Source: Thermosphaera sp. (GTDB lineage: Archaea > Thermoproteota > Thermoprotei_A > Sulfolobales > Desulfurococcaceae). From it: DNA of 64,000 nt. How positions within the stretch are numbered: position 1 is the stretch's first letter; every line of letters starts with the position of its first letter. Shown here piece after piece: positions 630 through 40,674 of the stretch. The DNA lies in NCBI GenBank assembly GCA_038827615.1, contig JAWBNK010000001.1, positions 558,290 through 622,289 on the forward strand, in the 5' to 3' direction. The notes under the pieces are model-generated. The model ran no database searches and was not told the DNA's origin. It saw only the letters and a program-made list of their open reading frames with translations. The translations under genes and the position numbers were made by a program.

Positions 630-1961
630 ATGCCGAGAAAAATAGTGATCTTAGGTGCTAGTGGAAGAGACTTCCACAATTTTAACACGTTCTATAGAGA
701 TAACCCAGACTATGAGGTCGTGGCTTTTCTCCAAACCCAAATTCCAGGAATAAGTGGGAGAAGATATCCACCAAGTCTCGCTGGACCCCGATATCCAGAT
801 GGAATACCCATCTTGAGCATGAATTATTTAGAGAATATTTCAAAGACCCATGGAGTTGAAGAGGCAGTTCTCTCTTTCAGCGATTTGACTTATGAGGAAC
901 TAGGTGGAATTGTTTCCAGAGTGGTGGGTGCAGGATTATCGTTCAAGATTCTGGGACCAATGGATACGATGCTGGAAAGCATTAAGCCAGTCATCGCTGT
1001 TACGGGGGTAAAAACTGGTGCTGGCAAAAGCATGGTTTCTAGAGAGTTCGCTCTTGAAATGAGAAAGAGAGGTCTCAAGGTAGGCGTAGTTAGACACCCG
1101 ATGCCGTATGGTGATTTAGAAAAGTCTGCCGTTCAAGTTTTTCACGATTTCAGCGACCTGGACAAGTATGAGGCGACGATAGAGGAGAGAGAAGAGTATG
1201 AGCATTACTTGAAAATAGGTTTTTCCGTGTACGCGGGTGTTGATTACGGGAAGATACTGAGGATTATGGAGATGGAGAATGATATAATACTTTGGGATGG
1301 AGGAAATAACGACTGGCCCTTCTATAAGCCGGACTTCATGGTCACGGTTGCTGATGCCATGAGACCCGGGATAGAAGTATCATCATTTCCAGGGGAAATC
1401 AATTTGAGAATGGCTGATGGAGTAATAATTAATAAAGCGGACCAGGCTAAACCCGGGGCAATTTTGAAAATAAAGGAAAACATATCTTCAAGGAACAAGG
1501 ATGCTCTTATAAGTGTTGCGGAGAGCGAAGTAGTTGTCGACAAGCCCGACTTGATATCTGGAAAGAAAGTACTCGTGGTTGAAGACTCTCCAACAGTCAC
1601 GCATGGCGGTGCTAGGTATGCGGCAGGCTACGTCGCAGCAGTGAAATATGGTGGCGAACCAGTCGATCCCAGGCCATTCGCTACAAACTTCTTCAAGAAA
1701 ATGTTCGAGGAATACCCGCACATGGGACCGGTTCTTCCAAGCACTGGATACAGGCCAGATCAATTGAAAGAGTTGGAGGAAACGATAAATAAGGCTCCGG
1801 TGGACACGGTCGTCTTGGGGACTCCTTCAGATATCACCAGGTTGATTAGGATAAATAAACCGGTTGTTAGGGTAGAATTTAGGTTGAAAATAATTGAAGG
1901 ACCTGACGTAAAAGACTATGTCGAAATGTTCTTAGAGAAGGCATCTAAGAAGATAGTTTAG
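630..1961 (+). CDS. Cyclic 2,3-diphosphoglycerate synthetase-like P-loop protein (COG2403 type)
   Basis: The family ligates 2,3-diphosphoglycerate intramolecularly with ATP to make cyclic 2,3-diphosphoglycerate, a thermoprotectant or phosphate store in some archaea; many crenarchaeal members are annotated only as predicted GTPases. Seen: an N-terminal Rossmann-like start (IVILGASGRDFHNFN), a P-loop GVKTGAGKS near residue 130, and DGGNND near residue 225. The 443-residue length matches the family. The start is ATG 630; the GTG at 621 belongs to the sequence GGTG-TTAGGC-ATG and reads better as the ribosome-binding site. The neighbouring PEP synthase also acts in lower glycolysis/gluconeogenesis, which fits phosphoglycerate chemistry. 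The exact nucleotide and substrate are not provable from sequence. Confidence 0.72.
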   Translation: MPRKIVILGASGRDFHNFNTFYRDNPDYEVVAFLQTQIPGISGRRYPPSLAGPRYPDGIPILSMNYLENISKTHGVEEAVLSFSDLTYEELGGIVSRVVGAGLSFKILGPMDTMLESIKPVIAVTGVKTGAGKSMVSREFALEMRKRGLKVGVVRHPMPYGDLEKSAVQVFHDFSDLDKYEATIEEREEYEHYLKIGFSVYAGVDYGKILRIMEMENDIILWDGGNNDWPFYKPDFMVTVADAMRPGIEVSSFPGEINLRMADGVIINKADQAKPGAILKIKENISSRNKDALISVAESEVVVDKPDLISGKKVLVVEDSPTVTHGGARYAAGYVAAVKYGGEPVDPRPFATNFFKKMFEEYPHMGPVLPSTGYRPDQLKELEETINKAPVDTVVLGTPSDITRLIRINKPVVRVEFRLKIIEGPDVKDYVEMFLEKASKKIV

Positions 1962-3538
1962 TGTTTTTTCAAAATCGCTAACACGCCAACTCCTATGCCA
2001 ACGATGACTAGTCCCATTATAAGTAACAACTCTGTTTTAAGTCCTTCGTTCACTTTTGAAGGTGGCGTGTGATACTCAATGGTTGTCTGAGTGGGTGTGT
2101 AAGTTGTGGGCTCACTGGTCGTACTTGTTGTAGTGGTCAAGGTTGTTATCGACGTTGTAGTTGTTTCAGAATTAAAGGTGGTAGTGACAGTGGTTGTTGT
2201 AGTTGGGGACGTTGTCTCAATACTTGTTGTCGTAGTCGTAGACGTTGCAGTTGCACTTGTGGTAGTCGTAGTCTGAGAAGTAGCCGACGTAGTGGTTTTC
2301 GTTGTTGTAGTGGTTGTAGTTGTGGTAGGGGTTGGAGATGTTAAAGATATGGGTTCGTATAAGGATATCTCTCCCTCGATCCCGTAATGAGCTAATGCTA
2401 GATTGTCGCTTGGATAAAGCACTGTTGCATTATATGGGTCACCGGTCGTAAAGTAGACGTAGAAATCAGTAGCGTTGGTTTCAACTCGGTAATTATCGGT
2501 AGGGTTAATGTTGAACATGATGGTGGAATTAGGAGGCAGCCTGGCTACTATGTAAACGTCTACGCCTCCTACTGTGTACCTTATTCTTATAGGTAGTTCA
2601 ACGGGATTTCCATAAACGTCTAATTTACTATTAACCACAATGTATGCCGTTGCGTTGAAGATCGAAACTTCTAGTGCCCCATTCTCTATCATTACGGGGG
2701 CGAACTCGTAGGTCTGATTCGGATACAGTATTAACCACATATACTGGTACTTGGAAACACACACAGCTCCTTCCTGGCAGTTTGAAGCACTGTATAATGG
2801 TGCTCCAGCACCGCCGGAAATTATCCAGTCTGTTTCATTGAATCGGTAGTAAGCCCAACCGTGCCAGTGAGCTTGGATGACAAGAGGTGGCCAACCGTGG
2901 ATGCTCGCCCACTGGTGTATGGAGGCGTTCTTATCTGCTTGAATATTATGATTTACTAAGGGGTAGACCGGCCTATGCATCAACAGGATTATTTTACGCC
3001 CATTCAAGTCGGCTACTGCCTGGTCAAGCTGGTTGTTCCAAGAATAGATATCGCTCTCAGTGTCGAGCAGAGCTAATCTCCAACCTGGAATGGCGTCTAT
3101 TATTGAATACTCGGGTCCAATATATTGTCTCCAATAGTTTCTACAGAGAGTTGGATTGTACACTAGTTCGTGGTTCCCTAGTAGGAACCAAAGGTTTTCC
3201 AATCTCGTCGAATTCATTATTTCATAAAAAACTGCATACTGAGACTCGTACCCATATCCAACATGATCCCCCAATCCTATTGTAGCTAAGAGGTTCAACG
3301 CGTCCATCTCGCCGACAAAGTAGTAGAATATGGGCGGAGGATAAGCCGAGTAAACATTACTGTTCCTATTATCTCCGAAGATCAACATCGGATACCATGG
3401 TAAATTTTGAGGAATTGGCTTCTCCCTTTGTTGCATGAGAGGAATGGGTGGAGCAGACTCCACTCTCTGTAGCAAGAAAGTGGTTGCGATGAAAGCCACC
3501 CCTATGAGCAAGAATATGATTGTAGTTTCAATCTTCAA
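1958..3538 (-). CDS. Secreted, membrane-anchored calcineurin-like phosphoesterase with Thr-rich stalk
   Basis: The protein has an N-terminal hydrophobic signal/anchor (residues ~5-24), a metallophosphoesterase core, a stalk of almost pure Thr/Ser (~400-490) and a C-terminal membrane helix followed by KKH. Core motifs seen: FGDNRN (in place of the usual DxH), GLGDHVG, LGNHELVY, LLMHRPVYP and QAHWHGW (variant of GHxH). This order is that of binuclear-metal phosphoesterases, so an extracytoplasmic phosphoester hydrolase is likely; the substrate is unknown. The architecture matches the phosphoesterase at 12915-15149, but the two are diverged. TTG start with GGGTGAAAAGTA before it. The 3' end overlaps the preceding convergent gene by four bases. 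The Thr stalk is probably glycosylated (inference). Confidence 0.85.
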   Translation of the reverse strand: MKIETTIIFLLIGVAFIATTFLLQRVESAPPIPLMQQREKPIPQNLPWYPMLIFGDNRNSNVYSAYPPPIFYYFVGEMDALNLLATIGLGDHVGYGYESQYAVFYEIMNSTRLENLWFLLGNHELVYNPTLCRNYWRQYIGPEYSIIDAIPGWRLALLDTESDIYSWNNQLDQAVADLNGRKIILLMHRPVYPLVNHNIQADKNASIHQWASIHGWPPLVIQAHWHGWAYYRFNETDWIISGGAGAPLYSASNCQEGAVCVSKYQYMWLILYPNQTYEFAPVMIENGALEVSIFNATAYIVVNSKLDVYGNPVELPIRIRYTVGGVDVYIVARLPPNSTIMFNINPTDNYRVETNATDFYVYFTTGDPYNATVLYPSDNLALAHYGIEGEISLYEPISLTSPTPTTTTTTTTTKTTTSATSQTTTTTSATATSTTTTTSIETTSPTTTTTVTTTFNSETTTTSITTLTTTTSTTSEPTTYTPTQTTIEYHTPPSKVNEGLKTELLLIMGLVIVGIGVGVLAILKKH

Positions 3539-3626
3539 TACTTTTCACCCGCTAGGAATGGTATCAATAAGATAGCTTAAAAAGTGACGGTAAACCTTAA
3601 CGTATTCTGAAGATACGGTGTTCGGT

Positions 3627-5189
3627 TTGAGTTTCAAACTAGTAGAGGAGAAGGTATATATCCCAGACTACTCGGGGATTGTCCAAGGTATCCTGGTTAG
3701 AATGATTGAGGAAGGAAAAATCATTGGGAAAATTCTAGTTCACAAGGGTTTGATCACAATTTTCGAACATCTAGCTTCTCAAGGAAAGGCCGTGGGTATG
3801 ACTGGCTTAGAGGAGGTAAGGAGACTGAGAAGCCTCTATGAAAAAGGTCTAATCACCCTTGAATTCGTTGGAGAACGACCAAGGTTTGGTTTATCCGAAG
3901 AAGAGTGGGTGAGCGAGGTAAATTACAGCATAAGGGAGCTTGCTAGGAGTCTTGGGGCGGTTTTAGTCACTGGAGATCCCATACACTACAGAATTTCCCA
4001 AGCTTACGGACTCGAAGTATTGTATGTTGCTCCTAGAGAAAAGATTAAGCTAGAATTTGAGAAGTATTTCGACGAGGACACTATGAGTGTTCACTTGAAA
4101 GAAGGGGTCGAACCTTTAGCGAAAAAAGGTAAACCCGGGGAGTGGATTTATTCTATTTTGTCAAAAACTCCGCTTTCGAAGGAAGATATTGAGAAAATGG
4201 CTAATGAGATTATTGAGGAGTCTAGGAGGAGGAGTGACGCGTTCATAGAAATTGATAGAGTTGGCTCGACGATCATACAGCTTGGAGAGTATAGGATTGT
4301 TATAACGAGACCTCCTTTGAGCGATGGATGGGAGATCACTGCTGTAAAGCCTGTTAAGAAGTTGAAGCTTGAAGACTATAATTTACCAGCGGAACTTGTC
4401 AAGAGACTTGGGGAGAGGGCCGAAGGAATACTAATAGCTGGAGCACCAGGCATGGGTAAGACTACTTTTGCACAAGCCTTAGCCGAGTACTACATGAGAC
4501 AGGGCAAGGTAGTAAAAACCGTCGAATCTCCTAGAGACATGATCCTGCCGCCCAATATAACACAATACAGTAAAAACTACGCTAACATGGGCGAACTTCA
4601 CGATATTTTGTTATTGTCGAGACCGGACTACACTGTTTTCGATGAGATGAGATATGACGAGGATTTCAAGCTGTTCGCAGACCTGAGGCTTGCGGGAATA
4701 GGAATGATAGGAGTGGTTCACGCGACAACCCCGATAGATGCGGTTCAAAGGTTTATTGGAAGAGTCGAACTGGGCATGATACCTTCCATAATCGATACAG
4801 TGATCTTCATTAAGAATGGAGTAGTTGATAAGGTTTATGATGTAAAAATGACGGTGAAGCTTCCAACAGGGTTGAAGGAAGCCGAGTTATCCAGACCAGT
4901 GATTGAAGTTAGAGATTTCCTCACCGGAGAACTCGAGTACGAGATTTACACCTTCGGAGAACAAACCGTTGTAGTTCCAGTCAAAAAGCTGAGAGGAAAA
5001 CCAAGTCTAATGGATAACATTATTGAAAACGTGAAGAAAACTCTCCCGGAGGCCGAAGTAACGATAGAAGATAATTCCATTATAGTAATAATCAGTAGGA
5101 ACTTGTTAAAGACGTACAATAAGAGAGTGAAAAAACTTAGGAGGCTCGAGGAGAAATACAACATTCCTATCAAAATCCGAATAGTCTGA
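3627..5189 (+). CDS. PIN domain - PilT-like ATPase - KH domain protein (COG1855 type)
   Basis: A 520-residue protein with three parts: an N-terminal PIN-like nuclease fold (VYIPDYSGIV opening, acidic GDPIHYR segment ~110), a central secretion-type ATPase (Walker A GAPGMGKTT with K278, Walker B-like DYTVFDEMR, His-containing GVVHATTP) and a C-terminal KH-like RNA-binding domain (ending KYNIPIKIRIV). Archaeal members of this widespread family have no settled function; RNA processing or degradation is inferred from PIN plus KH. It has no membrane segments, so pilus motor function is unlikely. Start TTG 3627 is chosen because the GTG at 3618 lies in GGTG-TTCGGT-TTG, a Shine-Dalgarno with six-base spacing. 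It reads alone, between divergent and convergent neighbours. Confidence 0.88.
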   Translation: MSFKLVEEKVYIPDYSGIVQGILVRMIEEGKIIGKILVHKGLITIFEHLASQGKAVGMTGLEEVRRLRSLYEKGLITLEFVGERPRFGLSEEEWVSEVNYSIRELARSLGAVLVTGDPIHYRISQAYGLEVLYVAPREKIKLEFEKYFDEDTMSVHLKEGVEPLAKKGKPGEWIYSILSKTPLSKEDIEKMANEIIEESRRRSDAFIEIDRVGSTIIQLGEYRIVITRPPLSDGWEITAVKPVKKLKLEDYNLPAELVKRLGERAEGILIAGAPGMGKTTFAQALAEYYMRQGKVVKTVESPRDMILPPNITQYSKNYANMGELHDILLLSRPDYTVFDEMRYDEDFKLFADLRLAGIGMIGVVHATTPIDAVQRFIGRVELGMIPSIIDTVIFIKNGVVDKVYDVKMTVKLPTGLKEAELSRPVIEVRDFLTGELEYEIYTFGEQTVVVPVKKLRGKPSLMDNIIENVKKTLPEAEVTIEDNSIIVIISRNLLKTYNKRVKKLRRLEEKYNIPIKIRIV

Positions 5190-5391
5190 AACCAAAAACA
5201 TTGATCCATTGAACTTCCTCATAAACCTTCTTATTGTAATATTTTGACGTTAAATTCTAATATAGAACTAAATCTCAAAGCAACCATATTGAGAATACTT
5301 GCTAAATAGGGATTTCTTCTGCTTATTAAAAGGGGAAAGTTTTTAAAAGCCATGCAAGTCTCCAATAGTAAGTTTTGAGTTCAAAAACGCT

Positions 5392-6036
5392 TTACTTTGA
5401 TTCGTAAATCCTTCTAAGGAATATCGCTCTCTGAGACTCTACTACATCATCGGGTAAAACGTTGACGCGTCCCATGATTTTAGCCAATATATAAATCTGT
5501 GAAACACGTTCAACGAGTGTTAACACCTCTAAGGCCTGCTCCAAGGTTTTTCCACAAGCTACTACACCATGATTAGCAAGCAAGACTGCGCTCCTATCTC
5601 TTAAAGCCTCAACAACATTCTTAGCCAACCTTTCGCTTCCGAATGGAGCATACTCGGCAACTCTGACATCCCCTCCGGTGTACATGATCATTTCTTCGAT
5701 AATCGGTGGTAAAGACTCTCTTGAAACGGCTAAAACACTAGAATACAATCCGTGGGCGTGCACAACAGCGCCCACATGTTTAAACTCTTTATAAATTGCT
5801 AAATGCATGGGCATTTCAACCGTAGGGAAAAGTGTTCCCTCCAATATCTCACCATTCGGGGAAACGACGAGAATATCCTCCACCTTCATTCTCGATTTTA
5901 CAACTCCGCTCGGAGTAATAAGAATCTTATCATCACTTACTTTAACGCTGATATTCCCTGACCTCCCGTGATTAAGGCTCTTTTCCTCCATATATTTCAT
6001 TGCTTCAACGATCTTTGATTTAACATCTTCGTACAA
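5392..6036 (-). CDS. Class II aldolase/adducin family protein (fuculose-phosphate aldolase-like)
   Basis: A 214-residue zinc-dependent class II aldolase. Seen: the phosphate-binding NISVKV and TPSGV segments (~residues 28 and 44), the zinc-binding pair HAHGLYSS (~92-94), catalytic/ligand Glu region EEMIMYTGG, and a third histidine in LLANHGVV (~155). Members cleave sugar phosphates such as L-fuculose-1-phosphate to dihydroxyacetone phosphate plus an aldehyde; in hyperthermophilic archaea the same fold has been assigned to several pentose and methylthio-sugar phosphates, so the substrate is left open. Start TTG follows GGTG-TTTTC. It appears monocistronic. The 200-base gap before it (5190-5391) shows only AT-rich sequence. 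Confidence 0.85.
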   Translation of the reverse strand: MYEDVKSKIVEAMKYMEEKSLNHGRSGNISVKVSDDKILITPSGVVKSRMKVEDILVVSPNGEILEGTLFPTVEMPMHLAIYKEFKHVGAVVHAHGLYSSVLAVSRESLPPIIEEMIMYTGGDVRVAEYAPFGSERLAKNVVEALRDRSAVLLANHGVVACGKTLEQALEVLTLVERVSQIYILAKIMGRVNVLPDDVVESQRAIFLRRIYESK

Positions 6037-6174
6037 GAAAACACCGTTATAAAATATATTACGAAATGTTTAAAGCTTTTTACTAGAAACTCGCGAGACA
6101 GATAAACACTGTGAAATTATAGTTATTATGTGAAAAGTTTACGGGATTCTCATTTTCAAATAAATCAAATAGAT

Positions 6175-6651
6175 TTACCCTCCTGGGGTCCCGTGCCATG
6201 GGCTTTCTTTCCAGATCGAGTCCCATAATACCTCTTCGCTAAGCAATTCCTTTTTTGCTAGCTTTTCTTTAATCATAGTTAATAACTGGTGATGGGTTAT
6301 TTCATCCTTATATATTGCTTCAAGAATCAACTTGCATCTCGAGTCTGAGGCTTGTTCAATTAGTTCCTGGGTTTGTCTTATCATATCGGCCTCAGTCTTG
6401 ATGTGGTGTTCTATTGATTCCGAAATCTCTCTATACTCTTCTTCAGTAAGGAATGGTGGTTCAGTTTTAATAAGCTTTACTAGGGACTCATACATTCGAG
6501 AATGTTTAAGAGAGTCGAGAGCTACTGCTGTAAACAATGCCGCTAAAACAGGGTGTCGGAACTTCTCGACAGTTCTCAATAACATCTCCGAATATTCCTT
6601 TTCCCTTAGGTTCATTTTTTCTAGCCTTTGGCTTAAATTAAGATTATTCAT
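6175..6651 (-). CDS. Ferritin-like four-helix protein, possible diiron carrier
   Basis: A 158-residue, all-helical protein. Spaced acidic/His clusters fit a ferritin/rubrerythrin-type fold: DSLKHSRMYE (~45), ESIEHHIKTEADM (~85) and LEAIYKDEITHHQLL (~115), the last resembling the ExxH metal ligand of diiron proteins. No rubredoxin domain is present; the tail is a short WHGTPGG. Iron binding or peroxide scavenging is inference; a structural role is possible if the ligands are not all present. Start ATG at 6651 is preferred to the GTG at 6660 because the latter lies in GGTG-TATTCG-ATG. It sits alone, with a long gene-free stretch upstream. Confidence 0.6.
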   Translation of the reverse strand: MNNLNLSQRLEKMNLREKEYSEMLLRTVEKFRHPVLAALFTAVALDSLKHSRMYESLVKLIKTEPPFLTEEEYREISESIEHHIKTEADMIRQTQELIEQASDSRCKLILEAIYKDEITHHQLLTMIKEKLAKKELLSEEVLWDSIWKESPWHGTPGG

Positions 6652-7169
6652 CGAATACACCGTTTTATTGTATTTACTAAAGAGTTAAAATATTTTCATG
6701 AAAAGCTACTTCTTTTTAAAAATCCAACTGTTGGTGAGAAACGATGTTGTTATTCGTTTAAAGCACTCGACTTCATTGAGAGTTTTCATTATCGTGGGTG
6801 TAAACTCTTAATGGAATCTTTTAAGACATGGAGATTTTCAGGTAACAATAAAGGTCAAGGTCTAGAGTAATCTAGGATACAATCTGGCATCTTTACGATT
6901 CATTAATCCTTCTAAGCGCGGTAGAGACGAATAAGAATGTTTCTTCCCGTAATGCCGTGAACTAGGAATTCTACATTCATTAGTTACTATTATCTTATCT
7001 ATCAATACTGAAAGGAAAGTAGTAGGATTTGTCACGCCATCCTTTGATTTACTTAACCTTCATGAAAAATGACCTGAAATATTGAAAATACTTGAAAACA
7101 ATTATTAAGTTTTTAAAATGAGCCTTTTACATAATTATGTATTAGTCAAATAGATTGGAAGGGATAATC
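6652..7169. other. Gene-free stretch with AT-rich promoter-like elements
   Basis: About 500 bases with no plausible protein gene. It holds the promoter of the ferritin-like gene (minus side), a TATA-like ctttttaaaa near 6713, a 7-bp inverted repeat AGAGTTT/AAACTCT near 6780-6810 with a 17-base loop, and at its right end the promoter of the micro-gene at 7170. I see no tRNA fold, no C/D box set and no clear gene remnant. Confidence 0.4.
7109..7120 (+). promoter_or_regulatory. TATA box of the 20-residue Lys/Glu micro-gene
   Basis: The element gtttttaaaatg lies about 26 bases before an expected transcription start near 7140, giving a ~30-base leader that carries the Shine-Dalgarno GGAAGGGAT just before ATG 7170. 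Confidence 0.45.
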
Positions 7170-7232
7170 ATGAGCCAACCACAACAACCTAAGAAGGAGG
7201 AAAAGAAAGAAGAGAAAAAGAAGAAAAAGTGA
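7170..7232 (+). CDS. 20-residue Lys/Glu-rich micro-protein
   Basis: ATG is preceded by GGAAGGGATAATC, a good Shine-Dalgarno, and by a TATA box. It encodes MSQPQQPK followed by KE-rich blocks and a run of five lysines, 20 residues in all, ending TGA. A T-rich terminator follows directly (7245-7266). The product would be disordered and strongly basic; binding to nucleic acid, ribosomes or acidic proteins is inference only. A second micro-gene with the same style (MPCKKK..., Lys/Glu repeats) lies at 53364, which makes chance less likely. I do not recognise a named family. Too short for most gene finders. Confidence 0.6.
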   Translation: MSQPQQPKKEEKKEEKKKKK

Positions 7233-7242
7233 TGATTAAATC

Positions 7243-7266
7243 ACATTTACTTTTTTATTTTTTTTT
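7243..7266 (+). terminator. Poly-T terminator after micro-gene
   Basis: Two T tracts (six and nine T) separated by single A bases occur 13 bases after the stop codon of the micro-gene. Archaeal transcription commonly ends at such T runs without a hairpin. Confidence 0.6.
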
Positions 7267-7274
7267 CAGTGCGA

Positions 7275-8516
7275 TTATTCTCTCCACTTATCTTCATTGA
7301 AATCCTTAGTGATATATTTTGAGACTATAGTGGCTCCCAACGGGTCACCAATCACGTTTAGCATGGTTTCAAATGGATCTACCGCTGGGTGTACTCCAAC
7401 CATCCACCCTGCGGCTTCAACCGGAATACCCAGAGCGGTCGCTGTTGCAACAGCAACTATCGCTGCACCCCCCGGTACTCCTGCTGCCGCGGTTGCACCG
7501 AGGAGGCCTAAGACAACAAGAGTTAGAACTTCTCCAAATCCTAAGGGGATTCCAAGTGCTTGAAGAGCGAATAAAGTGAATAACGTAATAGTCGCGCATG
7601 CTCCTTGCATGTTGATTGTGGCTGCCACGGGAAGTATCAGGGTCGCAACTTCTCTTGACACTCCTGCTTCGGTAGCTGAGTTTATTGTAACGGGTAGCGT
7701 TGCATTACTACTGGCCGTTGAAAAAGCCGTGATCATTGCTGGATAATACTTCTTCCAAAACCGTAGTGGGTTTAGCCTAGCGACTAAAATCATGATGAGA
7801 GGCTGGACTACCAATAGAACGATTAAGCCGCTAACGTAAAAAGCTAATACCAATTTCGCGAATGCTCCTACAGCTATGACTCCTACGATGGCTGCAACAT
7901 TTGCCATTAATGCAAACACACCTATGGGTCCATACCACAATATAAAGTCTAACAGCTTGTAGACCACCGAAAGGAGGGATTCGAACAGTCTTGTCAAGAA
8001 CTCTTTAACTTGTGGGTTAGTTCGTCCAATCATACCAACTGCGATGCCAATAAGGATCGCCGTGAATATTATTTGAAGCATTCGCAAATTGAGAAACATG
8101 TCAACGAAATTCGAAGGAATGATGTTCCTCAAGTAATCAACAATCGTTAAGGATACCGGGTTAACGTTTCCGCTACCTGGTAATTGCACTCCTTCGCCGG
8201 GCTTCAGCATTATTCCTATTGCATATGCTGTGCCAACAGATGCCAGTCCCGTAACCAACCAATATGGAAGGAATCCAAGGAATATCTTACCTAGTTTCAG
8301 GAGATCTCTCATGCTCATAGTAGCCCAAGCTATACATAAAAACACTAGCGGTCCAACAATAAACTTTAGTAAGGAGACATAAATGTCTCCCAGGAATGCT
8401 ATGTTTTTAATGGGTTCTCCAACCGTGACCCCTACTATAAGACCTAAGACGGCTCCTACGAGCAACAATAATGGCCGTTTCCCAAGCTTAATCTGGAATA
8501 CAAGCTCGTTACTCAT
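7275..8516 (-). CDS. DAACS-family sodium/dicarboxylate symporter homologue (GltPh fold)
   Basis: A 413-residue membrane carrier of the glutamate/aspartate transporter family. Seen: HP1 tip STASSNATLP (~266), TM7 INMQGA (~301), HP2 GVPGGAAI (~346) and TM8 VDPFETMLNVIGD (~379). Aligned from memory with GltPh: the amino-group Asp394 is kept (D380) as are Na1 ligands N387/D391, but Arg397 is Glu383, Arg276 is Ala268, Asp312 is Gln304, Tyr89 is Trp86 and Ser93 is Gly90. So the usual acidic side-chain binder and the third sodium site appear changed; substrate may be neutral or cationic and coupling may differ (inference). Start ATG after GGTG-ATGAATA. It stands alone. Confidence 0.9.
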   Translation of the reverse strand: MSNELVFQIKLGKRPLLLLVGAVLGLIVGVTVGEPIKNIAFLGDIYVSLLKFIVGPLVFLCIAWATMSMRDLLKLGKIFLGFLPYWLVTGLASVGTAYAIGIMLKPGEGVQLPGSGNVNPVSLTIVDYLRNIIPSNFVDMFLNLRMLQIIFTAILIGIAVGMIGRTNPQVKEFLTRLFESLLSVVYKLLDFILWYGPIGVFALMANVAAIVGVIAVGAFAKLVLAFYVSGLIVLLVVQPLIMILVARLNPLRFWKKYYPAMITAFSTASSNATLPVTINSATEAGVSREVATLILPVAATINMQGACATITLFTLFALQALGIPLGFGEVLTLVVLGLLGATAAAGVPGGAAIVAVATATALGIPVEAAGWMVGVHPAVDPFETMLNVIGDPLGATIVSKYITKDFNEDKWRE

Positions 8517-8624
8517 TATTCATCACCTTCTAGTATATAGACGTATGTATCATAACGATAGATAAAGTTAAAAACGTTTCTTTTATTTTCGCTTAGGCGA
8601 GAATAAGAGGTATAGGATGGAGAT

Positions 8625-8675
8625 ATGTGTAAATGCCCTGATGATATGAAGCTTTACTACTCTTGGTCTTATTGA
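8625..8675 (+). CDS. Possible 16-residue micro-ORF with CxC start
   Basis: A short open frame MCKCPDD...WSY begins at ATG after TAGGATGGAGAT, and an AT-rich agttaaaaacg lies ~55 bases upstream. The Cys-x-Cys-Pro start could bind metal, but the length is near chance expectation and no terminator is obvious. Reported because the region is otherwise empty; it may be nothing. Confidence 0.18.
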   Translation: MCKCPDDMKLYYSWSY

Positions 8676-8693
8676 ACAAAAACGTTGAAAATT

Positions 8694-9629
8694 TTAGTCG
8701 GAAGCCTGAGTCAGTATCTCAACGTCGACTAGGTGCTTGCTTGAACCTCTTTGGACTAGAAGAGTAACATATCCTTGTTCAATGCTCTCCTCCACGATTT
8801 CACGCAAATCGCTTGTTTTCCCAACGCGTTTCCCATTTGCTTCTAGTATGACATCTCCCTCCCTAACTCCTTCCATATATGCTGGAGTGCCAGGTATGCT
8901 CTTCACGACGAGCAAGCCTTCTTTAACTGGCAACCTGTAAAGAGAGGCAATGGTGGGATTTAAAGGAGCGACGTAAACCCCAATCCACGCTCTTACCGGT
9001 CTTCCATACTTCTCTATCATGGCAATAAACCTCTTTACCGTGTTAATAGGTATTGCAAACCCCAGGCCCTGAGCGAAAGGAATTATCGCCGTTGTCACTC
9101 CGACTGCCTCGCCCTCTAGATTGATAAGCGGTCCCCCGCTATTACCAGGATTTATAGCTGCATCAGTTTGAATCAAGTCCTCGAGAATTATGTTCTCGCC
9201 GACTATTGTCCTGCCCAACGCGCTGACAACACCCATCGTGACTGTATGCTGAAACATTCCTAAAGGCGAGCCAATGGCGAAAACTATCTCGCCTACCCTC
9301 AACTTACCCGAATCCCCCATTTTCAAGGGGGAGACGTGCTCATCTGTTCCTAGGAGAGCTAAATCCTTGGCAGTGTCGACAGCAAGTACCTCGGCTCTTG
9401 TTACATAGCCGTCTATAAAGCTTATGGTTACTCTGGCCGCGTTTTTAACTACATGAGCGTTAGTAACCACGTACTTCCGTGAGAATACGAAACCAGATCC
9501 GAACCCCTTCACTGGTTCAAAGCCAAACACGCTTAACGGGTGCTCTATGAGAGTTGAAACCGTAACTACAGAAGGCTTGACGTTTTCAACTATTTGAGCT
9601 ATCTCATTGCTGAGGGATTTTAAGCTCAT
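8694..9629 (-). CDS. HtrA/DegP-type serine protease with one PDZ domain, no signal peptide
   Basis: A 311-residue trypsin-fold protease with catalytic triad His59 (VTNAHVV), Asp89 (DTAKDLALL) and Ser164 (GNSGGPL), followed by a single PDZ domain (~215-305; GLLVVKSIPGTPAYMEGVREGD). HtrA proteins degrade or refold damaged proteins, normally outside the cytoplasm. Here the N-terminus is amphipathic and charged, with no hydrophobic signal or anchor, so the protein looks cytosolic. Start ATG after GGGTTTATA; no better upstream start is visible before the TATA-rich leader. It is monocistronic, 64 bases from the next gene's end region. A missed upstream exon-like start cannot exist in archaea, but a non-classical export route cannot be excluded. 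Confidence 0.92.
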   Translation of the reverse strand: MSLKSLSNEIAQIVENVKPSVVTVSTLIEHPLSVFGFEPVKGFGSGFVFSRKYVVTNAHVVKNAARVTISFIDGYVTRAEVLAVDTAKDLALLGTDEHVSPLKMGDSGKLRVGEIVFAIGSPLGMFQHTVTMGVVSALGRTIVGENIILEDLIQTDAAINPGNSGGPLINLEGEAVGVTTAIIPFAQGLGFAIPINTVKRFIAMIEKYGRPVRAWIGVYVAPLNPTIASLYRLPVKEGLLVVKSIPGTPAYMEGVREGDVILEANGKRVGKTSDLREIVEESIEQGYVTLLVQRGSSKHLVDVEILTQASD

Positions 9630-9751
9630 TATAAACCCTGACCGTATTTATCGCATAGGTAGTTTATTAAATCTATCTAGACTCTCTAGTTCAGAGTATT
9701 TAAAGAACTAGCTGATATGTAGGTAGATTGATCAAAAAGGCTCGAAAATAA

Positions 9752-10051
9752 TCATGAATTGACGACTCGTTTGACTTTATAGTCCAAGCTGATTTCCTTG
9801 TCGAATCGAAGGTCTAGCGAAATATCAATGGCGACCCTATTCACGCCCTCGCCCTTCAATATGTTGATAATCTCTCCCGTAATTTCTGCTAATTTATCTA
9901 AGCTTTCAATTTCGAAAGCGGTACTAAAGGGGGTTACAACGTAATTAATCCCATGATTTCTTAAAACTTCAACGGCCTTTTTTACATGGTCGCCTATGCT
10001 GGACGAGCATGTTCCTATCGGAATCACTCGTATGTTAGCAAGTATTCTCAT
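9752..10051 (-). CDS. Thiamine-binding-like protein of the MTH1187/YkoF family (PF01910)
   Basis: A 99-residue ferredoxin-like alpha/beta protein matching the MTH1187 family in length and pattern: N-terminal strand ILANIRVIPIGT, the SSSIGDHVKKAVEVL helix, the YVVTPFSTAFE strand with an acidic residue and a C-terminal strand rich in Lys/Asp. Relatives bind thiamine or its pyrimidine and form tetramers; some are of unknown function. No transport or thiamine gene is next to it, but a thiamine-phosphate kinase (ThiL) lies at the far end of the window. Start ATG after GTGAGATTAT. Confidence 0.82.
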   Translation of the reverse strand: MRILANIRVIPIGTCSSSIGDHVKKAVEVLRNHGINYVVTPFSTAFEIESLDKLAEITGEIINILKGEGVNRVAIDISLDLRFDKEISLDYKVKRVVNS

Positions 10052-10099
10052 ATAATCTCACTATGGTAAGTACAAAATAACTCAGTTTTTTTCATGCCT

Positions 10100-10936
10100 T
10101 TAAATTTTATCGCTTGAGAGGTTTTGAATCCATTTGAGAATATCCTCTAAGATTTTCTCCCCTCCGGGTTCGAGAAACAAGTTGTGACCAAAGTTGGAAT
10201 ATATAAGGAGTTTCTTATAGGGAGATTTTATTTTCTCAAAAGCCTTCTTAGAAGCTTCGACCGGGATAACGTTATCTTTCTCGCCGTGAATAATCAAGAC
10301 GGGTACCGATGTGTTTTCTGTGTTCCTCCAAAATAGCGAAGCAGCTGTAATCATCTCGTTGATTAGTTTGGCCGTAACCGCGGATAGAATTAAATGAGGG
10401 TCCTTTATTTTTTCGAAAGTTTCCTGTTTCTGGGGGTTATGATCACGTAATTTCAGCTTGTAGCGCGGACTTATTTTTGACAACATCTTAAGAACTATCC
10501 TGTGAGAAGTTTTTAGCGGTATTTCCAGAGCAGGCGCCAGCGCTATTACTGCGTCCACGTCGTCTTTCGCGAAAATGCTGGCAAGGAGAACTATTAATCC
10601 TCCCATGCTGTGGCCCCAATAAATTATTTTCTTTCCACCTATCCTCCATTTGATGTAGTCCGCGAATTTTTCGAGATCTGATACATAGTCAAGGAACGAG
10701 TTTACATAGCCCTTATCGTCCACGCTAGCCGTTCTTCCATGACCCCTCTGATCATGCATGCAGAAAGCAATGCCGCTTTTAGCAAAGACCTCTCCAACTG
10801 GGAGGTAGACTCCACTGTGAGCTGTCAAACCATGCGAACCTATAATTAATATGTCAAATTTCGAATCTGGCAGTAGGCAACGATAGAAAACTCTTGATCC
10901 TGTCCCTAGCAGTACGAAATCCTCAATTTCGTTCAT
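10100..10936 (-). CDS. Alpha/beta hydrolase, monoacylglycerol lipase-like
   Basis: A 278-residue serine hydrolase. Seen: oxyanion segment IGSHGLTAHSG, the family signature DQRGHGRT, nucleophile elbow WGHSMGG, acid HGEKDNVIP and catalytic His in NFGHNLF. The pattern is that of the serine-aminopeptidase S33/monoglyceride-lipase group (Hydrolase_4), acting on carboxyl esters in the cytosol; the natural ester is unknown. Start is ATG 10936, preceded by GTAGGTGGGTTG; the longer frame to 10981 would add 15 hydrophobic residues with no ribosome site before it. Confidence 0.85.
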   Translation of the reverse strand: MNEIEDFVLLGTGSRVFYRCLLPDSKFDILIIGSHGLTAHSGVYLPVGEVFAKSGIAFCMHDQRGHGRTASVDDKGYVNSFLDYVSDLEKFADYIKWRIGGKKIIYWGHSMGGLIVLLASIFAKDDVDAVIALAPALEIPLKTSHRIVLKMLSKISPRYKLKLRDHNPQKQETFEKIKDPHLILSAVTAKLINEMITAASLFWRNTENTSVPVLIIHGEKDNVIPVEASKKAFEKIKSPYKKLLIYSNFGHNLFLEPGGEKILEDILKWIQNLSSDKI

Positions 10937-11332
10937 CAACCCACCTACAGAATATACATAAATAATAATGCTCAAATCCAATTATAACACCAATGTTTAA
11001 TGCAACCGTAACCTCTGATTTGACGATTAAATTGCCGCTGGCTACGTAAACCTTTAACAGACCCGCTTGTTTTTGCAGAATATCTAGCTTTCATTAAAAT
11101 GAGATAGGGGCATGGGATTCTAGAGGACCATGATGTTGGTGAAAGGCTTGGTGCAACCCGTATCAACTGGAAGGAGTACTGGTTTGGGAACCTCAGGTGG
11201 TGAATTTGGAGGTGGACAGATTAAGCATCATATCTTATGAGCTAAGAATGCGGGATTCATAGATCTCTCATTTTATTCAAAAAATTGACTACGCGCAAAA
11301 GTCATGTTATACTATTTTAAAGGGGTGAAAGA
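10937..11332. other. Gene-free stretch with possible worn coding remnants
   Basis: About 400 bases between a hydrolase and an epimerase gene. Both upper-strand frames near 11100-11230 give short Gly/Thr-rich peptides, broken by stops, which could be the eroded tail of an older gene; I cannot name it. A TATA-like gttatactatttt near 11306 and GGGGTG before ATG 11335 could start a 12-residue peptide (MCSKTCIPRSAI) that overlaps the epimerase 3' end. No repeat, tRNA or box pattern was found. Confidence 0.3.
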
Positions 11333-12250
11333 TTATGTGCTCGAAGACCTGTATTCCTCGATCAGCAATTTAATACCTTCTTCAATGTGGATAGCGGGTT
11401 CGAAAGAGATCATGTGTTTCAATTTAGAAATATCTGCCACGCTATGTAATATGTCCCCCTTTCTCCTAGGTTTATGTATAACGACCAGATCCTTACCAAT
11501 AATCCTAGATATAACGCCTGTGAGGTCAAGAATGCTAATCGGTTGACCAGTGCCAACATTATAAATCTCGTTTGAAAAGACATCTTGAGAAATCATTTTT
11601 TCAACGATTCTAGCGACATCGAATACGTGGATGAAATCCCTTGTTTGAGTACCGTCCCCATAAACAATAAAAGGCTCTCCTCGAATCGCATTCAAAACGA
11701 ATCTTGAGACAACTCCAGCGTGCTCCATTCTCTGGCCGGGCCCATACACATTGAATAAACGTAGGATAGAGTATTTCAGTCCGTACAGCCTTCCATACAT
11801 TCTTATAATTTGCTCCCCCATATACTTACTTAAACCGTACGGTGATTTAGGATCAATAGGGTCCGCTTCAGTAATAGGTATTTTAACGGGATCCCCGTAA
11901 ACCGCCGCCGAGCTCAGGTATATCAGTTTAACCCCTTTTTTCGAGCACTCTAACCCTACTTTGCTAGTTCCCATCGTATTGACGTCGAAATATTTGTGCG
12001 GTTCTCTAACACTCTCTTCGACGTCAACATAAGCTGCCGCATGAACCACCACATCAATATCGCTATAATTTTCATAAAATCTTACATCTGCCTTAATTAT
12101 CGGGATGTTTTTCTCCTTCAGCCTCTCTAAACCCATTGGACTTGCCCTTTCAAGAGTGTCCAGTACTAGTACCTCGTATCCTTTGTTGATCAGGTAAAGT
12201 GAAATATTATGTCCGATGAATCCTGCACCACCAGTTACTAAAATCCTCAT
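11333..12250 (-). CDS. NAD-dependent sugar-nucleotide epimerase/dehydratase (GalE-like)
   Basis: A 305-residue extended short-chain dehydrogenase. Seen: NAD-binding GGAGFIG at residue 7, the D-V-V-V-H-A-A-A strand, catalytic YGLSK (Tyr/Lys pair, ~138-142) with SSAAVYG before it, and the RLFNVYGPGQ motif that contacts the nucleotide-sugar. Members of this branch epimerise UDP-glucose to UDP-galactose or act on related UDP/dTDP sugars for protein and lipid glycosylation. The window also has a glycosyltransferase (56506) and flippase (61516), but not adjacent. A TATA-like element ttattaaaacg lies near 12328, leaving a leader of about 50 bases. Confidence 0.88.
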   Translation of the reverse strand: MRILVTGGAGFIGHNISLYLINKGYEVLVLDTLERASPMGLERLKEKNIPIIKADVRFYENYSDIDVVVHAAAYVDVEESVREPHKYFDVNTMGTSKVGLECSKKGVKLIYLSSAAVYGDPVKIPITEADPIDPKSPYGLSKYMGEQIIRMYGRLYGLKYSILRLFNVYGPGQRMEHAGVVSRFVLNAIRGEPFIVYGDGTQTRDFIHVFDVARIVEKMISQDVFSNEIYNVGTGQPISILDLTGVISRIIGKDLVVIHKPRRKGDILHSVADISKLKHMISFEPAIHIEEGIKLLIEEYRSSST

Positions 12251-12415
12251 GGTTATTACCCTGATAGTACTACGATTTTCTGATCTCTTTGATGTCTCAA
12301 ACGCTTCTTAGGTTACTATTCAGCGATTATTAAAACGTTTCCATTCCAGCATACTGTGGCTTAGTCGTCAAATGTTATCTATGGTCTCATGATTCTTGTT
12401 CACGGGATGAATAAT

Positions 12416-12841
12416 TTAAAAGAAGTCCTTTAGACTTTTCACACCTTTAACTAAAGAAATCAAGTCCTCGAGTTTAAGAGCCTTAGCAATCATGTCTTTT
12501 GTTATCTTAAACGGTCTTTCTTGTAAATTTTCAATCCTCACAAACCTCCACTCTCCTGTCCCCACTATTTTAATCGCAATGAAAGCCTCTCCACCCGCTC
12601 GCCGCTTAAATTCCAAAAGTTTTTCAACCTGTTCTGGTCTGACGTAAATTGACCTTTCCTTTCTAATAGTTTTTGCTTCAATAGCTACGACTTTCCCCTG
12701 ATACACGGCGACTATATCGGGGTATAGAATCCTCCTCGCTTTTGAACCGCTAGCAGGAGCTCGAACGACAGCTAGACCATATGACCACAACTTGTAAACC
12801 AAGTCTCTCTCGTGTGAAAACCCTCTTCTCCGATTGCTCAC
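12416..12841 (-). CDS. hjc: Holliday junction resolvase Hjc
   Basis: A 141-residue archaeal resolvase that cuts four-way DNA junctions in recombination and fork repair. The nuclease active site is visible: FSHERDLVYKLW (Glu near residue 10), YPDIVAV (Asp near 43) and VAIEAKT (Glu-x-Lys near 54-56). The basic, Gly/Ser loop APASGSKARR matches the family's DNA-binding loop. Length and order match Hjc rather than Hje, but the distinction is modest. GTG start, with GGGAGTGCG upstream. The gene is divergent from the surface cluster that begins at 12915, so the short gap between them holds two promoters. Confidence 0.93.
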   Translation of the reverse strand: MSNRRRGFSHERDLVYKLWSYGLAVVRAPASGSKARRILYPDIVAVYQGKVVAIEAKTIRKERSIYVRPEQVEKLLEFKRRAGGEAFIAIKIVGTGEWRFVRIENLQERPFKITKDMIAKALKLEDLISLVKGVKSLKDFF

Positions 12842-12914
12842 GCTAACGCACTCCCTTCTCTTACATATATTATTTAAATCATCTCTATGATAAAATCATA
12901 TTTGGTGAATAAAG

Positions 12915-37726: not shown

Positions 37727-37920
37727 GACAGATCCTCATACTATGATAGATATTATAAAGCACTTCCCCATATTTATCCATAGGGATGACCGCAGCCCTC
37801 CTAAAAGAATTGAAAGATGTTTGATTCACGGACCGGGGGACCGAAAATATTTCTCCAGTAATACTCTCTAAACTGGTTTATAAGAAATACCCAGGGGATT
37901 AGCCCATGGTGGATTGATTG
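37727..37920. other. Divergent promoter gap with a GC-rich core
   Basis: About 190 bases between nikR and the next gene. It holds a minus-side TATA near 37755, a plus-side TATA (ggtttataag, ~37876) and between them a GC-rich patch (~37784-37850) with AGGG...CCCT and repeated GGACCG units. The GC patch could be an operator or the trace of a structured RNA; I see no complete C/D box set. Confidence 0.35.
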
Positions 37921-38178
37921 ATGGATGTTCAAGAAAGAATAGTATCAAGAGCCGCTGATTTAACTAATCTCTTAATGCTAAGATATATCAGCATGTTAGA
38001 GGACTTGAAGGTTTATGAAGCAGAAGTTGAACACTCTGACATGCCCCCTGAAGATAAAGAGGCGACTTTATCGATGATTAATTTCTTGAAGAACGTGGTG
38101 GTGAAGGAGATCTACTCTTTAGCCGCAGAGGGACTATACTCCGGTGCTCAGAACAAGCAAGATATAAGTACTTTTTAA
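37921..38178 (+). CDS. Small helical protein of unknown function upstream of the candidate CARF-PIN gene
   Basis: An 85-residue protein, predicted to be almost all helical and acidic (long helices around VSRAADLTNLLMLRYISMLEDLKVYEAEV and a second around MINFLKNVVVKEIYSLAAEGL). No known motif. Start ATG 37921, preceded by GGTGGATTGATTG; the in-frame TTG 37918 is less likely. A TATA box at ~37876 gives a short leader. It is 42 bases before the next gene, which has its own promoter. Confidence 0.6.
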   Translation: MDVQERIVSRAADLTNLLMLRYISMLEDLKVYEAEVEHSDMPPEDKEATLSMINFLKNVVVKEIYSLAAEGLYSGAQNKQDISTF

Positions 38179-38220: not shown

Positions 38221-39864
38221 ATGATCCTTAGTATCAAAGAGGTGTACAATTTGGAGTCTTTTGTAGACATTTTACTGAAAGGAGAGATAGATCCTCTAAA
38301 AACTATGTTAATACCGGTTGACTCATATCCATCGGTTGTTTCCACAGTGATAAACAGAGTTCAAGAGGAGCTGGATATAAATGATTTCATAATAGTCACT
38401 AGAAGAGAAACAGCCGAAATAGTGAAAAACGTAATGGGAAATGTCTCATCAACTGTAAACATTTATTTCGACAATATACTATTCAAAAGTCTATTAAAAG
38501 ATAACGTATTTGAGAACCTATTCATCATTGGAAATCTAATCAAGGGTATAAGGGATAGACTTAGCAGAATTTATATAGATATATCGGCATCATCGGGTCC
38601 CTTAGTTGCAGGACTTATGGGAGAAAAAAATCAATTGAATCTCGATGTTGTCTTTACTCATGTTGACATTATTCCGCTACCTGCAATTCCCTCATATCCT
38701 TATAGTCCCAGGTGGATTCACAAGGTGTATGTCCACGATAAATTCGATTTTTCGACAAAGGACGTGGTGAATCGTGATGGGGGAATAACGACTGAGTACC
38801 TGGAGTGGCAGGGCAGTAAACACATCTTCATGGAGATCTCGAGGATTCTTAATAAGATAACTAATAGCGGTTTAGTGGAGGCATTCTATGATGGTCAAAG
38901 ACACTCTTTTGACGAAGTAGATAAGATCAACATATACGCGTCTTTGCCTGGAGGAGGGGAAAAGAGGCTACTAATATCAATGGATATTAAGACTGGCCCT
39001 TCCGATGAAACAGTAACTATGATGTACGATAGTTGGAAGGTTCTTTCAAACTTGATCCACGAGCAAAACAGCGATATAGATAAGACGCTATTAGACCGCG
39101 TATTGATGCAAATTCAAAGATACACTGGGTCTGTTGATTTAGTTGTTAAAGAGATTAAATCCTCCGAAAAAGAGTTTTCAAACTACAGGGGTTGGAAAAT
39201 CCACAGCTTCTTAATCGATATAGTTAGAAGAACAAAGAAACCCATAGCCCTACTACCCGACACTAACATGTATTATCAGGGATTCCATATTACACTGCTT
39301 AAAGCAAGCATCAAAAACGGCCACCCATGGTCGTCTATCGATGGCTTAAGAATTTACACACCTATTTGCGCGGAGGCGGAAATAAATGGAAAGGTAGCTG
39401 AATCTGCCGGTGAGACAAAGGGCCTTTCGCTATACTCATACATCATGGCTCTACTTGCTAATCGCGCGATCGATGAAGTTAAAAGATACTATGGAAGCTT
39501 CCAAATCCCTGCAGTAAGCCCGCCCTGCGAGGCCTCTATAGCTGTGGTGGCTCAGAACATTCTCGAGGAAAAAGCCATTCTTATGACAGCCGATAGGAAG
39601 GCTTACAATGCTTGGCAAACAATAAATGTCTGTAGAGACAGAGTTTTATGCGTTTACGTTGGCCACCAACAGAAAACTTTGAACATAGATGGAATGTTCT
39701 CAAAATATTATGCCAGCATTGTGTTGGCTAACTTATTGTATGTAGCAAGCTTATTTGCAAATATCGATATTGTTTCATCAAAGGATAAAATCCGTATGAG
39801 CCTGGAAAACTTAAAGGGCAGTAATGCACCGGTCATAAAAATTTCTAGAATATTTACTCACTGA
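38221..39864 (+). CDS. Candidate CARF-like sensor fused to a PIN nuclease domain
   Basis: A 547-residue protein. Residues ~25-160 have a Rossmann layout resembling CARF domains: a strand then Pro/Val helix (MLIPVDSYPSVVSTVI), second strand IIVTRRET, and the ligand-loop-like IYIDISASSGP (~115-126). A middle part (~170-335) is unassigned. Residues ~340-490 fit a PIN ribonuclease: D347 (LLPDTNMYY), E385/E387 (CAEAEINGK), E437 (PPCEAS) and D458 (MTADRK). CARF domains bind cyclic oligoadenylate in type III CRISPR signalling and CARF-PIN fusions are known; here no cas genes or arrays are visible. The PIN part is the firmer call; the CARF part is inference. Confidence 0.6.
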   Translation: MILSIKEVYNLESFVDILLKGEIDPLKTMLIPVDSYPSVVSTVINRVQEELDINDFIIVTRRETAEIVKNVMGNVSSTVNIYFDNILFKSLLKDNVFENLFIIGNLIKGIRDRLSRIYIDISASSGPLVAGLMGEKNQLNLDVVFTHVDIIPLPAIPSYPYSPRWIHKVYVHDKFDFSTKDVVNRDGGITTEYLEWQGSKHIFMEISRILNKITNSGLVEAFYDGQRHSFDEVDKINIYASLPGGGEKRLLISMDIKTGPSDETVTMMYDSWKVLSNLIHEQNSDIDKTLLDRVLMQIQRYTGSVDLVVKEIKSSEKEFSNYRGWKIHSFLIDIVRRTKKPIALLPDTNMYYQGFHITLLKASIKNGHPWSSIDGLRIYTPICAEAEINGKVAESAGETKGLSLYSYIMALLANRAIDEVKRYYGSFQIPAVSPPCEASIAVVAQNILEEKAILMTADRKAYNAWQTINVCRDRVLCVYVGHQQKTLNIDGMFSKYYASIVLANLLYVASLFANIDIVSSKDKIRMSLENLKGSNAPVIKISRIFTH

Positions 39865-39957
39865 AATCCTCTTTTTCAAACATTGACTATTCGAATAGAT
39901 TATGTTTGAAAAATTCTTAAATTACCGAACATTCGTAATTATATATAGGGATCATGC

Positions 39958-40314
39958 ATGAAGATTTGGATAAAGCTTATGACTGCTTTGGGGTTTCCAC
40001 CGGTTGCAGGGGTTGTACTTGCCGCGCTCATTACAAGTAAAACCCCGTTGAATTTAACTGAGCTCTCAAGGAGAACAGGTTATGCAAAGAGTCATTTGTC
40101 TCAAACATTAAAGCTGATGCACGCCCGTAACGTCGTTGAATCCTATGTTGAGAAGAAAAAGAAATATTATGTGTTGAACATGAAGGGATTGCTAAAGGAG
40201 CTTGAACAACACATTGATAATATTCTGGATTCTCTTCACCATCTCTCAAATAATACCAACGAAATAGAGTTTGCAGAGTTTTATGAAAAATTATCCAGAA
40301 AATTCAAGGTGTAG
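39958..40314 (+). CDS. MarR/GbsR-type winged-helix regulator
   Basis: A 118-residue protein with a winged helix (~14-72): KTPLNLTELSRRTGYAKSHLSQTLKLM as helix-turn-helix, wing VEKKKKYYVLN, followed by a long helix likely used for dimerising. It belongs to the GbsR/MarR-like set. ATG 39958 is the annotated start; a strong TATA-like aattatatata at ~39938-39948 would place transcription start near 39970 and favour ATG 39979 instead. Tightly followed by the next gene (3 bases). It may regulate the adjacent candidate CARF-PIN gene or its own operon. Confidence 0.65.
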   Translation: MKIWIKLMTALGFPPVAGVVLAALITSKTPLNLTELSRRTGYAKSHLSQTLKLMHARNVVESYVEKKKKYYVLNMKGLLKELEQHIDNILDSLHHLSNNTNEIEFAEFYEKLSRKFKV

Positions 40315-40317
40315 TTT

Positions 40318-40674
40318 ATGATCGAGGGAAAGATTTTAATCATTATTCAACCCCGCGGGGACGGGTTGAAAATTTACAATACACTGTGGAAAATAAGCCA
40401 AAGAGAGAATGTCAAGCGTTTGAACATTTGCTTACTAGCCGATTCCGGAAACACTGGAGGTGAACTGGAGAAGATCCGGGTGATTACATCGTACAATCAT
40501 TTGCTGACGTTGAATATCTACCTATGCAAGGAAGCCGATATCTTAGAGATCATGAAGAACGGGAAGGTCTACATAGTTTATTTCAAAGAAGACGAGGACA
40601 AAGTGAAACGCGTCATCCAGTCGCTAGTGCATCAGGGTATGTCGATAGAGGAGGTGGTTCTAGATGAATTATGA
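40318..40674 (+). CDS. Unknown 118-residue alpha/beta protein
   Basis: A small, predicted Rossmann-like alpha/beta protein (ILIIIQPRGDGLKIYNTL, LNICLLADSGNTGGELEKI, VYIVYFKED). No catalytic motif recognised; the Gly-rich GDSGNTGG-like turn may bind a phosphate. Start ATG follows GGTG-TAGTTT. It ends inside the start of the radical-SAM gene (11-base overlap), so the products are translationally coupled. I cannot assign a function. Confidence 0.55.
   Translation: MIEGKILIIIQPRGDGLKIYNTLWKISQRENVKRLNICLLADSGNTGGELEKIRVITSYNHLLTLNIYLCKEADILEIMKNGKVYIVYFKEDEDKVKRVIQSLVHQGMSIEEVVLDEL

Follow-up and report, generated by a model that had tools for sequence, protein, structure and literature searches.

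A CARF-PIN protein kept in Desulfurococcaceae genomes with and without detectable type III CRISPR genes

CARF domains are generally regarded as receivers of messengers made by Cas10, so a gene that joins such a domain to a nuclease away from any visible Cas10 raises the question of what it is kept to sense. One gene of this kind lies in the stretch of Thermosphaera sp. DNA analysed here (64,000 nucleotides, hereafter the window), and no CRISPR genes were seen among the open reading frames around it. An earlier note, made from the letters of the window alone, had read the gene as a candidate CARF-PIN nuclease without visible CRISPR genes.

Architecture and conserved residues

The gene (38221-39864, + strand) begins with ATG and encodes 547 amino acids. 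PADLOC profile PDLC01979, CARF_m12--CARF_PIN, matches residues 13-542 of the protein over positions 5-529 of its 533 (E 5.6e-199), and the CARF_m3--CARF_PIN profile gives weaker matches to the same protein. The family is thus already catalogued, as minor CARF clade m12, in a PADLOC entry that gives no ligand or function. The protein matched nothing in Pfam, NCBIfam or the sequences of the PDB, and since the Pfam PIN profile matched neither it nor any of 28 relatives, its C-terminal part is assigned to PIN by fold only.

An AlphaFold (AF2) model of the full protein, computed from an alignment of 22 orthologs, has a mean pLDDT of 88.8 and a pTM of 0.89. Its best fold match in the PDB by Foldseek is Sulfolobus islandicus SiRe_0806, apo and cA4-bound (9jxw; 9jxx with cA4), at E values of 4e-10 to 1e-8 and TM-scores by target of 0.54-0.59, and this match spans the whole protein. 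CARF structures of Csm6, Can2 and Cam1 rank next, those of Cam1 and Can2 with probability 1.00 and E 0.0046-0.03. The Rossmann-type sensor, or CARF domain, covers approximately residues 9-172 (38245-38736, + strand), as delimited by the order of strands and helices in the model, by the Cam1 and Can2 matches and by invariant residues. The PIN nuclease domain and a C-terminal extension occupy residues 336-547 (39226-39861, + strand). Modelled alone, this part has a pLDDT of 77.9 and matches 5f4h, 3ix7, 1v8p and 2fe1, which we take to be PIN proteins, as well as T5 FEN and, again, SiRe_0806; the names carried by these matches include PIN-containing archaeal ATPase (5f4h), PAE2754, PAE0151 and T5 flap endonuclease. 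Between the two domains lies an alpha/beta region of approximately residues 190-335 (38788-39225, + strand), confident in the model. It had been proposed that the middle, about 170-335, might be a new domain; as the SiRe_0806 match runs across it and the family as a whole conserves N211 and G303, we regard it instead as a shared part of the family, not as a domain new to this gene.

The acidic residues D347, E387, E437 and D458 occur in PIN order on sequence comparison, at the positions the earlier note gave, and are invariant in all 22 orthologs. The comparison was extended to 28 diverse CARF-PIN proteins, which outside the clade of the query share only about 15-20% identity with it. Here D347, E387, D458, P160, P163 and N211 never vary, either D or E stands at position 437, and G303, C383 and C436 almost never vary; judged from these alignments, the conservation of the acids over such divergence is far beyond chance. 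As a separate observation, C383 and C436 stand beside catalytic acids, are nearly invariant in CARF-PINs of hyperthermophiles, and might form a disulfide near the active site.

Within the CARF domain, D120, G126, P160, P163, R164, W165 and H167 are invariant among the 22 orthologs, the prolines and the three residues after them belonging to a YPxSPRWxHK motif at 159-168. The loop IYIDISASSGP, which had been picked out as resembling a CARF ligand loop in a Rossmann layout, does follow a strand of the N-terminal alpha/beta domain (strand 116-120, helix 126-134), and its core, D120-I-S-A-S-S-G126, is of the ligand type. Most of the remaining CARF-PINs have SxAGR, SxGSR or similar following that strand, and one has DITGGTK; the window clade has D(I/L)(S/T)xxxG, without R or K, in an alignment at about 18% identity. 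The loop without R or K suggests a changed ligand pocket. Taken together, the PADLOC match, the likeness in fold to SiRe_0806, Cam1 and Can2, and the PIN folds matched by the C-terminal part support the identity first proposed: a CARF-PIN protein in which a connecting domain joins the CARF sensor, at the N-terminus, to a C-terminal PIN domain whose acidic site is intact.

Type III CRISPR, descent and selection

The absence of CRISPR genes holds for the window and not for the genome, which measures 1.36 Mb in six contigs, is 99.98% complete and has two congeners (Thermosphaera, family Desulfurococcaceae) among the compared genomes. Another contig (G000:C4) carries a complete-looking III-A operon with Csm2, Csm3, Csm4, Csm5, a Cas10 that is apparently active to judge by its GGDD motif, and a CARF9-HEPN protein of the Csx1/Csm6 type (1113-9174 of locus L044); the adjoining CRISPR array (9350-12914) contains more than 40 copies of the 24-nt repeat CTTTCAATTTTTCTCTATTGTTTC. 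The gene for Cas1 lies on C1, with about 450 kb between it and the CARF-PIN gene. VapC-type PIN proteins, sought in this genome for comparison, were not found.

Full-length orthologs of the clade occur in 23 of 40 Desulfurococcaceae genomes and only in that family. The CARF_m3 profile matches 71 of 229 genomes of the class, across the order, a count that includes the weak matches of the window clade itself. Scanning genome contigs with the single protein returned no relatives; scanning them with the alignment returned 16 loci, all from Desulfurococcales or unclassified Thermoproteota MAGs, and viral contigs scanned with the ortholog alignment contained none. One relative, at 6002-7432 of L116 (G174:C1:306109-307432), has a frame change inside the PIN domain and is either a frameshifted copy or a sequencing error.

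To compare this distribution with that of type III systems, we used the 23 family genomes with a completeness of 90% or more and a contamination of 5% or less; CARF-PIN is present in 15 of them. Five of these 15 (G000, G077, G085, G090 and G091) have Cas10 or RAMP proteins. The other 10 showed neither Cas10 nor a type III RAMP protein in searches with a Cas10 palm profile, the Cas10 protein of the Thermosphaera genome and a RAMP profile, and five of them (G070, G072, G075, G094 and G097) also lack Cas1 and Csx1. Csx1 was found in 5 of the 7 type III genomes and in 0 of the 16 others (p = 0.0006), CARF-PIN in 5 of 7 and 10 of 16 (p = 1), these p-values being descriptive, as species are not independent and the absence of Cas10 was scored on one genome per species. 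Outside the family, CARF-PIN tracks Cas10 (21/30 versus 30/69, p = 0.017, from counts made by hand), and in three genomes there (G174, G200 and G201) the two genes lie 6-12 kb apart. Within the family they are never side by side, being on different contigs or more than 400 kb apart in every genome with both. CARF-PIN in Desulfurococcaceae thus shows neither of two features expected of an ancillary type III effector, proximity to a type III locus and regular co-occurrence with Cas10; the Thermosphaera genome itself has both genes. Type III is patchy within genera, being present in 1 of 3 Thermosphaera and 1 of 4 Thermogladius genomes, and all three Desulfurococcus genomes were negative in both type III tests and kept CARF-PIN. 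Searches of the 40 family genomes for two other messenger synthases, the c-di-AMP synthase DAC and mCpol, found neither in any genome.

Thermosphaera and Thermogladius share the chromosomal neighbourhood of CARF-PIN, which lies between a group of NikR-like, glutaredoxin-like and HTH genes and a group with radical SAM, metG and sugar kinase genes; the Desulfurococcus gene is flanked by two genes that are situated 6 kb away in Thermosphaera; and each genus forms its own group in the CARF-PIN tree. CARF-PIN is inherited vertically in Desulfurococcaceae. Among pairs in which both members lack Cas10, dN/dS was 0.046 (G096-G097), 0.095 (G070-G071), 0.046 (G092-G094) and 0.083 (G075-G079), and 0.03-0.11 for the CARF domain where defined, with several pairs saturated at synonymous sites and G075-G079 unsaturated. 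By this codon measure, CARF-PIN, its CARF domain included, is under purifying selection in lineages without Cas10. The copy in G097 was considered as a pseudogene and retained as intact, its apparent in-frame stop being located upstream of the true start.

Explanations for retention, and the neighbouring genes

We suggest, with a probability of about 0.55, that the gene encodes a CARF-PIN nuclease under the control of a ligand, and that the signal for which it is kept is probably not just the cyclic oligoadenylate of type III. This follows from the combination of a gene kept by selection in genomes without a detectable cyclic oligoadenylate (cOA) synthase and an altered ligand loop, which together make an input from type III, at least as the sole one, improbable. 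On balance, the comparative data favour the view that within Desulfurococcaceae the gene is sustained by a role outside type III. The stricter proposal that the protein has left type III CRISPR altogether, and, passed on vertically, serves as a regulator of the host or an innate sensor of viruses with a ligand not made by Cas10, we hold at somewhat short of even odds; its ligand would possibly be RNA ends or the product of a yet-undiscovered nucleotide synthase of hyperthermophilic archaea. Messenger synthases other than DAC and mCpol may exist. Weighing against our preferred explanation are the apparently active Cas10 and the Csx1-type effector encoded in the same genome, the binding of cA4 by the closest solved relative, and the coming and going of type III loci between strains.

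Several of these points also speak for the main rival, in which patchy type III systems maintain the gene at the level of populations: CARF-PIN would be an ordinary cOA effector with a fixed place in the chromosome, type III operons would come and go around it, and it would be selected whenever one is present. It is a serious possibility, if clearly the less probable one: it accounts for the cA4-bound SiRe_0806 structure as best fold match, the III-A operon of the Thermosphaera genome, the association of CARF-PIN with Cas10 in other families, and the patchiness of type III in Thermosphaera and Thermogladius. It fits less well with the behaviour of Csx1, the standard effector, which unlike CARF-PIN is lost together with type III in Desulfurococcaceae, or with the strong constraint on CARF-PIN in the three type III-negative Desulfurococcus genomes and the distance that it keeps from Cas10 throughout the family. 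A 2025 survey moreover reports that loss of cOA synthesis accompanies loss of cOA-binding effectors (PMC12669027).

Retention without CRISPR at a conserved chromosomal position, through vertical descent and with loss of the R or K of the ligand loop, would also suit a PIN ribonuclease with a housekeeping task, such as RNA processing or the quality control of tRNA, whose CARF fold is only a dimerisation or RNA-binding module and receives no signal molecule; the divergent CARF domain of RtcR does bind tRNA fragments (PMC7790460). We consider this unlikely. The gene is missing from the near-complete family genomes G086, G088 and G102-G105 and is thus not essential, and the invariant D120 and G126 of the loop, with the low dN/dS of the CARF domain, suggest a working pocket.

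The immediate neighbours that the earlier note had mentioned, a small helical protein and an HTH protein, are real and conserved in the genus, but the former is not a dedicated partner. Its gene (37918-38178, + strand), with 11 nearby homologues, ends 42 nt upstream of CARF-PIN on the same strand, and its family, of 86-110 amino acids, is almost confined to Desulfurococcaceae, has R11, Y23, L27, E28 and E34 invariant and has no family assignment. It was rejected as an obligate partner or antitoxin because 31 of the 40 family genomes encode it, some of them lacking CARF-PIN, and because in several the two genes are far apart. That the two form a toxin-antitoxin-like pair, as the frequency of PIN domains among toxins and the closeness of the two genes might lead one to expect, is on these grounds, and because their relative orientation is not conserved, very improbable.

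Downstream, the HTH gene (39958-40314, + strand) encodes a MarR/ArsR-like protein of 118 amino acids (Pfam MarR_2, E 6.7e-6; HTH_IclR also above the cut-off), and is followed by a gene for another protein of 118 amino acids (40318-40674, + strand) that has no family hit. Among the compared loci, both genes occur in Thermosphaera only, and the second evolves fast, with 33-35% identity within the genus against 59-75% for flanking genes. Directly after the CARF-PIN stop codon is an inverted repeat (39872-39913, + strand) of two adjoining 21-nt arms, 86% complementary, that folds as RNA better than 200 of 200 shuffles (z = -3.4) and might act as a 3' hairpin or as operator for the HTH gene. Outside Thermosphaera, loci of Staphylothermus and Thermogladius encode, immediately downstream of CARF-PIN, a helical protein of 285-291 amino acids with no assigned family (L051 5648-6523, L052 6248-7120 and L057 10941-11798); its gene overlaps the CARF-PIN stop codon in one locus, making it a candidate partner there.

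Proposed action and comparison with known systems

If the gene does encode a ligand-gated nuclease, as we suggest, the protein would be a CARF-linked dimer, by analogy with SiRe_0806 and other CARF effectors, and could plausibly be gated by a nucleotide. Once its CARF pocket had bound a nucleotide or a short RNA, both PIN sites would be switched on, and these would presumably cut RNA. The III-A Cas10 of the Thermosphaera genome could in principle supply cyclic oligoadenylate, and our leading candidate for the ligand is an RNA end or another host-derived nucleotide produced under stress. If true, a CARF-nuclease fusion kept by selection where Cas10 is not detectable would mean either that hyperthermophilic archaea possess a further messenger synthase or that damage to RNA, or infection, is sensed directly.

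Among known systems, the CARF_m12--CARF_PIN family of PADLOC has the same architecture and a full-length match, and the window protein is a member of it with no structural difference. SiRe_0806, its best fold match both over the whole length and for the PIN part alone, is only about 10% identical in sequence and has been solved with cA4, whereas the ligand loop of the window protein departs from that of other CARF-PINs. The CARF_m3--CARF_PIN proteins of Aeropyrum, Sulfolobaceae and others share the domain order, D347/E387/D458, YPxxP and N211, but their loop is usually SxAGR or SxGSR, with an R, and their occurrence is statistically tied to Cas10. Csx1/Csm6 proteins, one of which is encoded beside Cas10 in the Thermosphaera genome, likewise fuse a CARF sensor to an RNase, which is however HEPN and not PIN, and in Desulfurococcaceae their occurrence strictly follows type III. 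The use of CARF independently of CRISPR is not new in itself, as CARF homologues outside CRISPR-Cas are abundant (PMC12669027) and RtcR, the characterised case, which binds 5' tRNA fragments with a cyclic phosphate, works without CRISPR (PMC7790460). RtcR resembles the window protein, on our reading, in putting a divergent CARF domain to use outside CRISPR, and differs from it in being a bacterial transcription activator with no nuclease domain.
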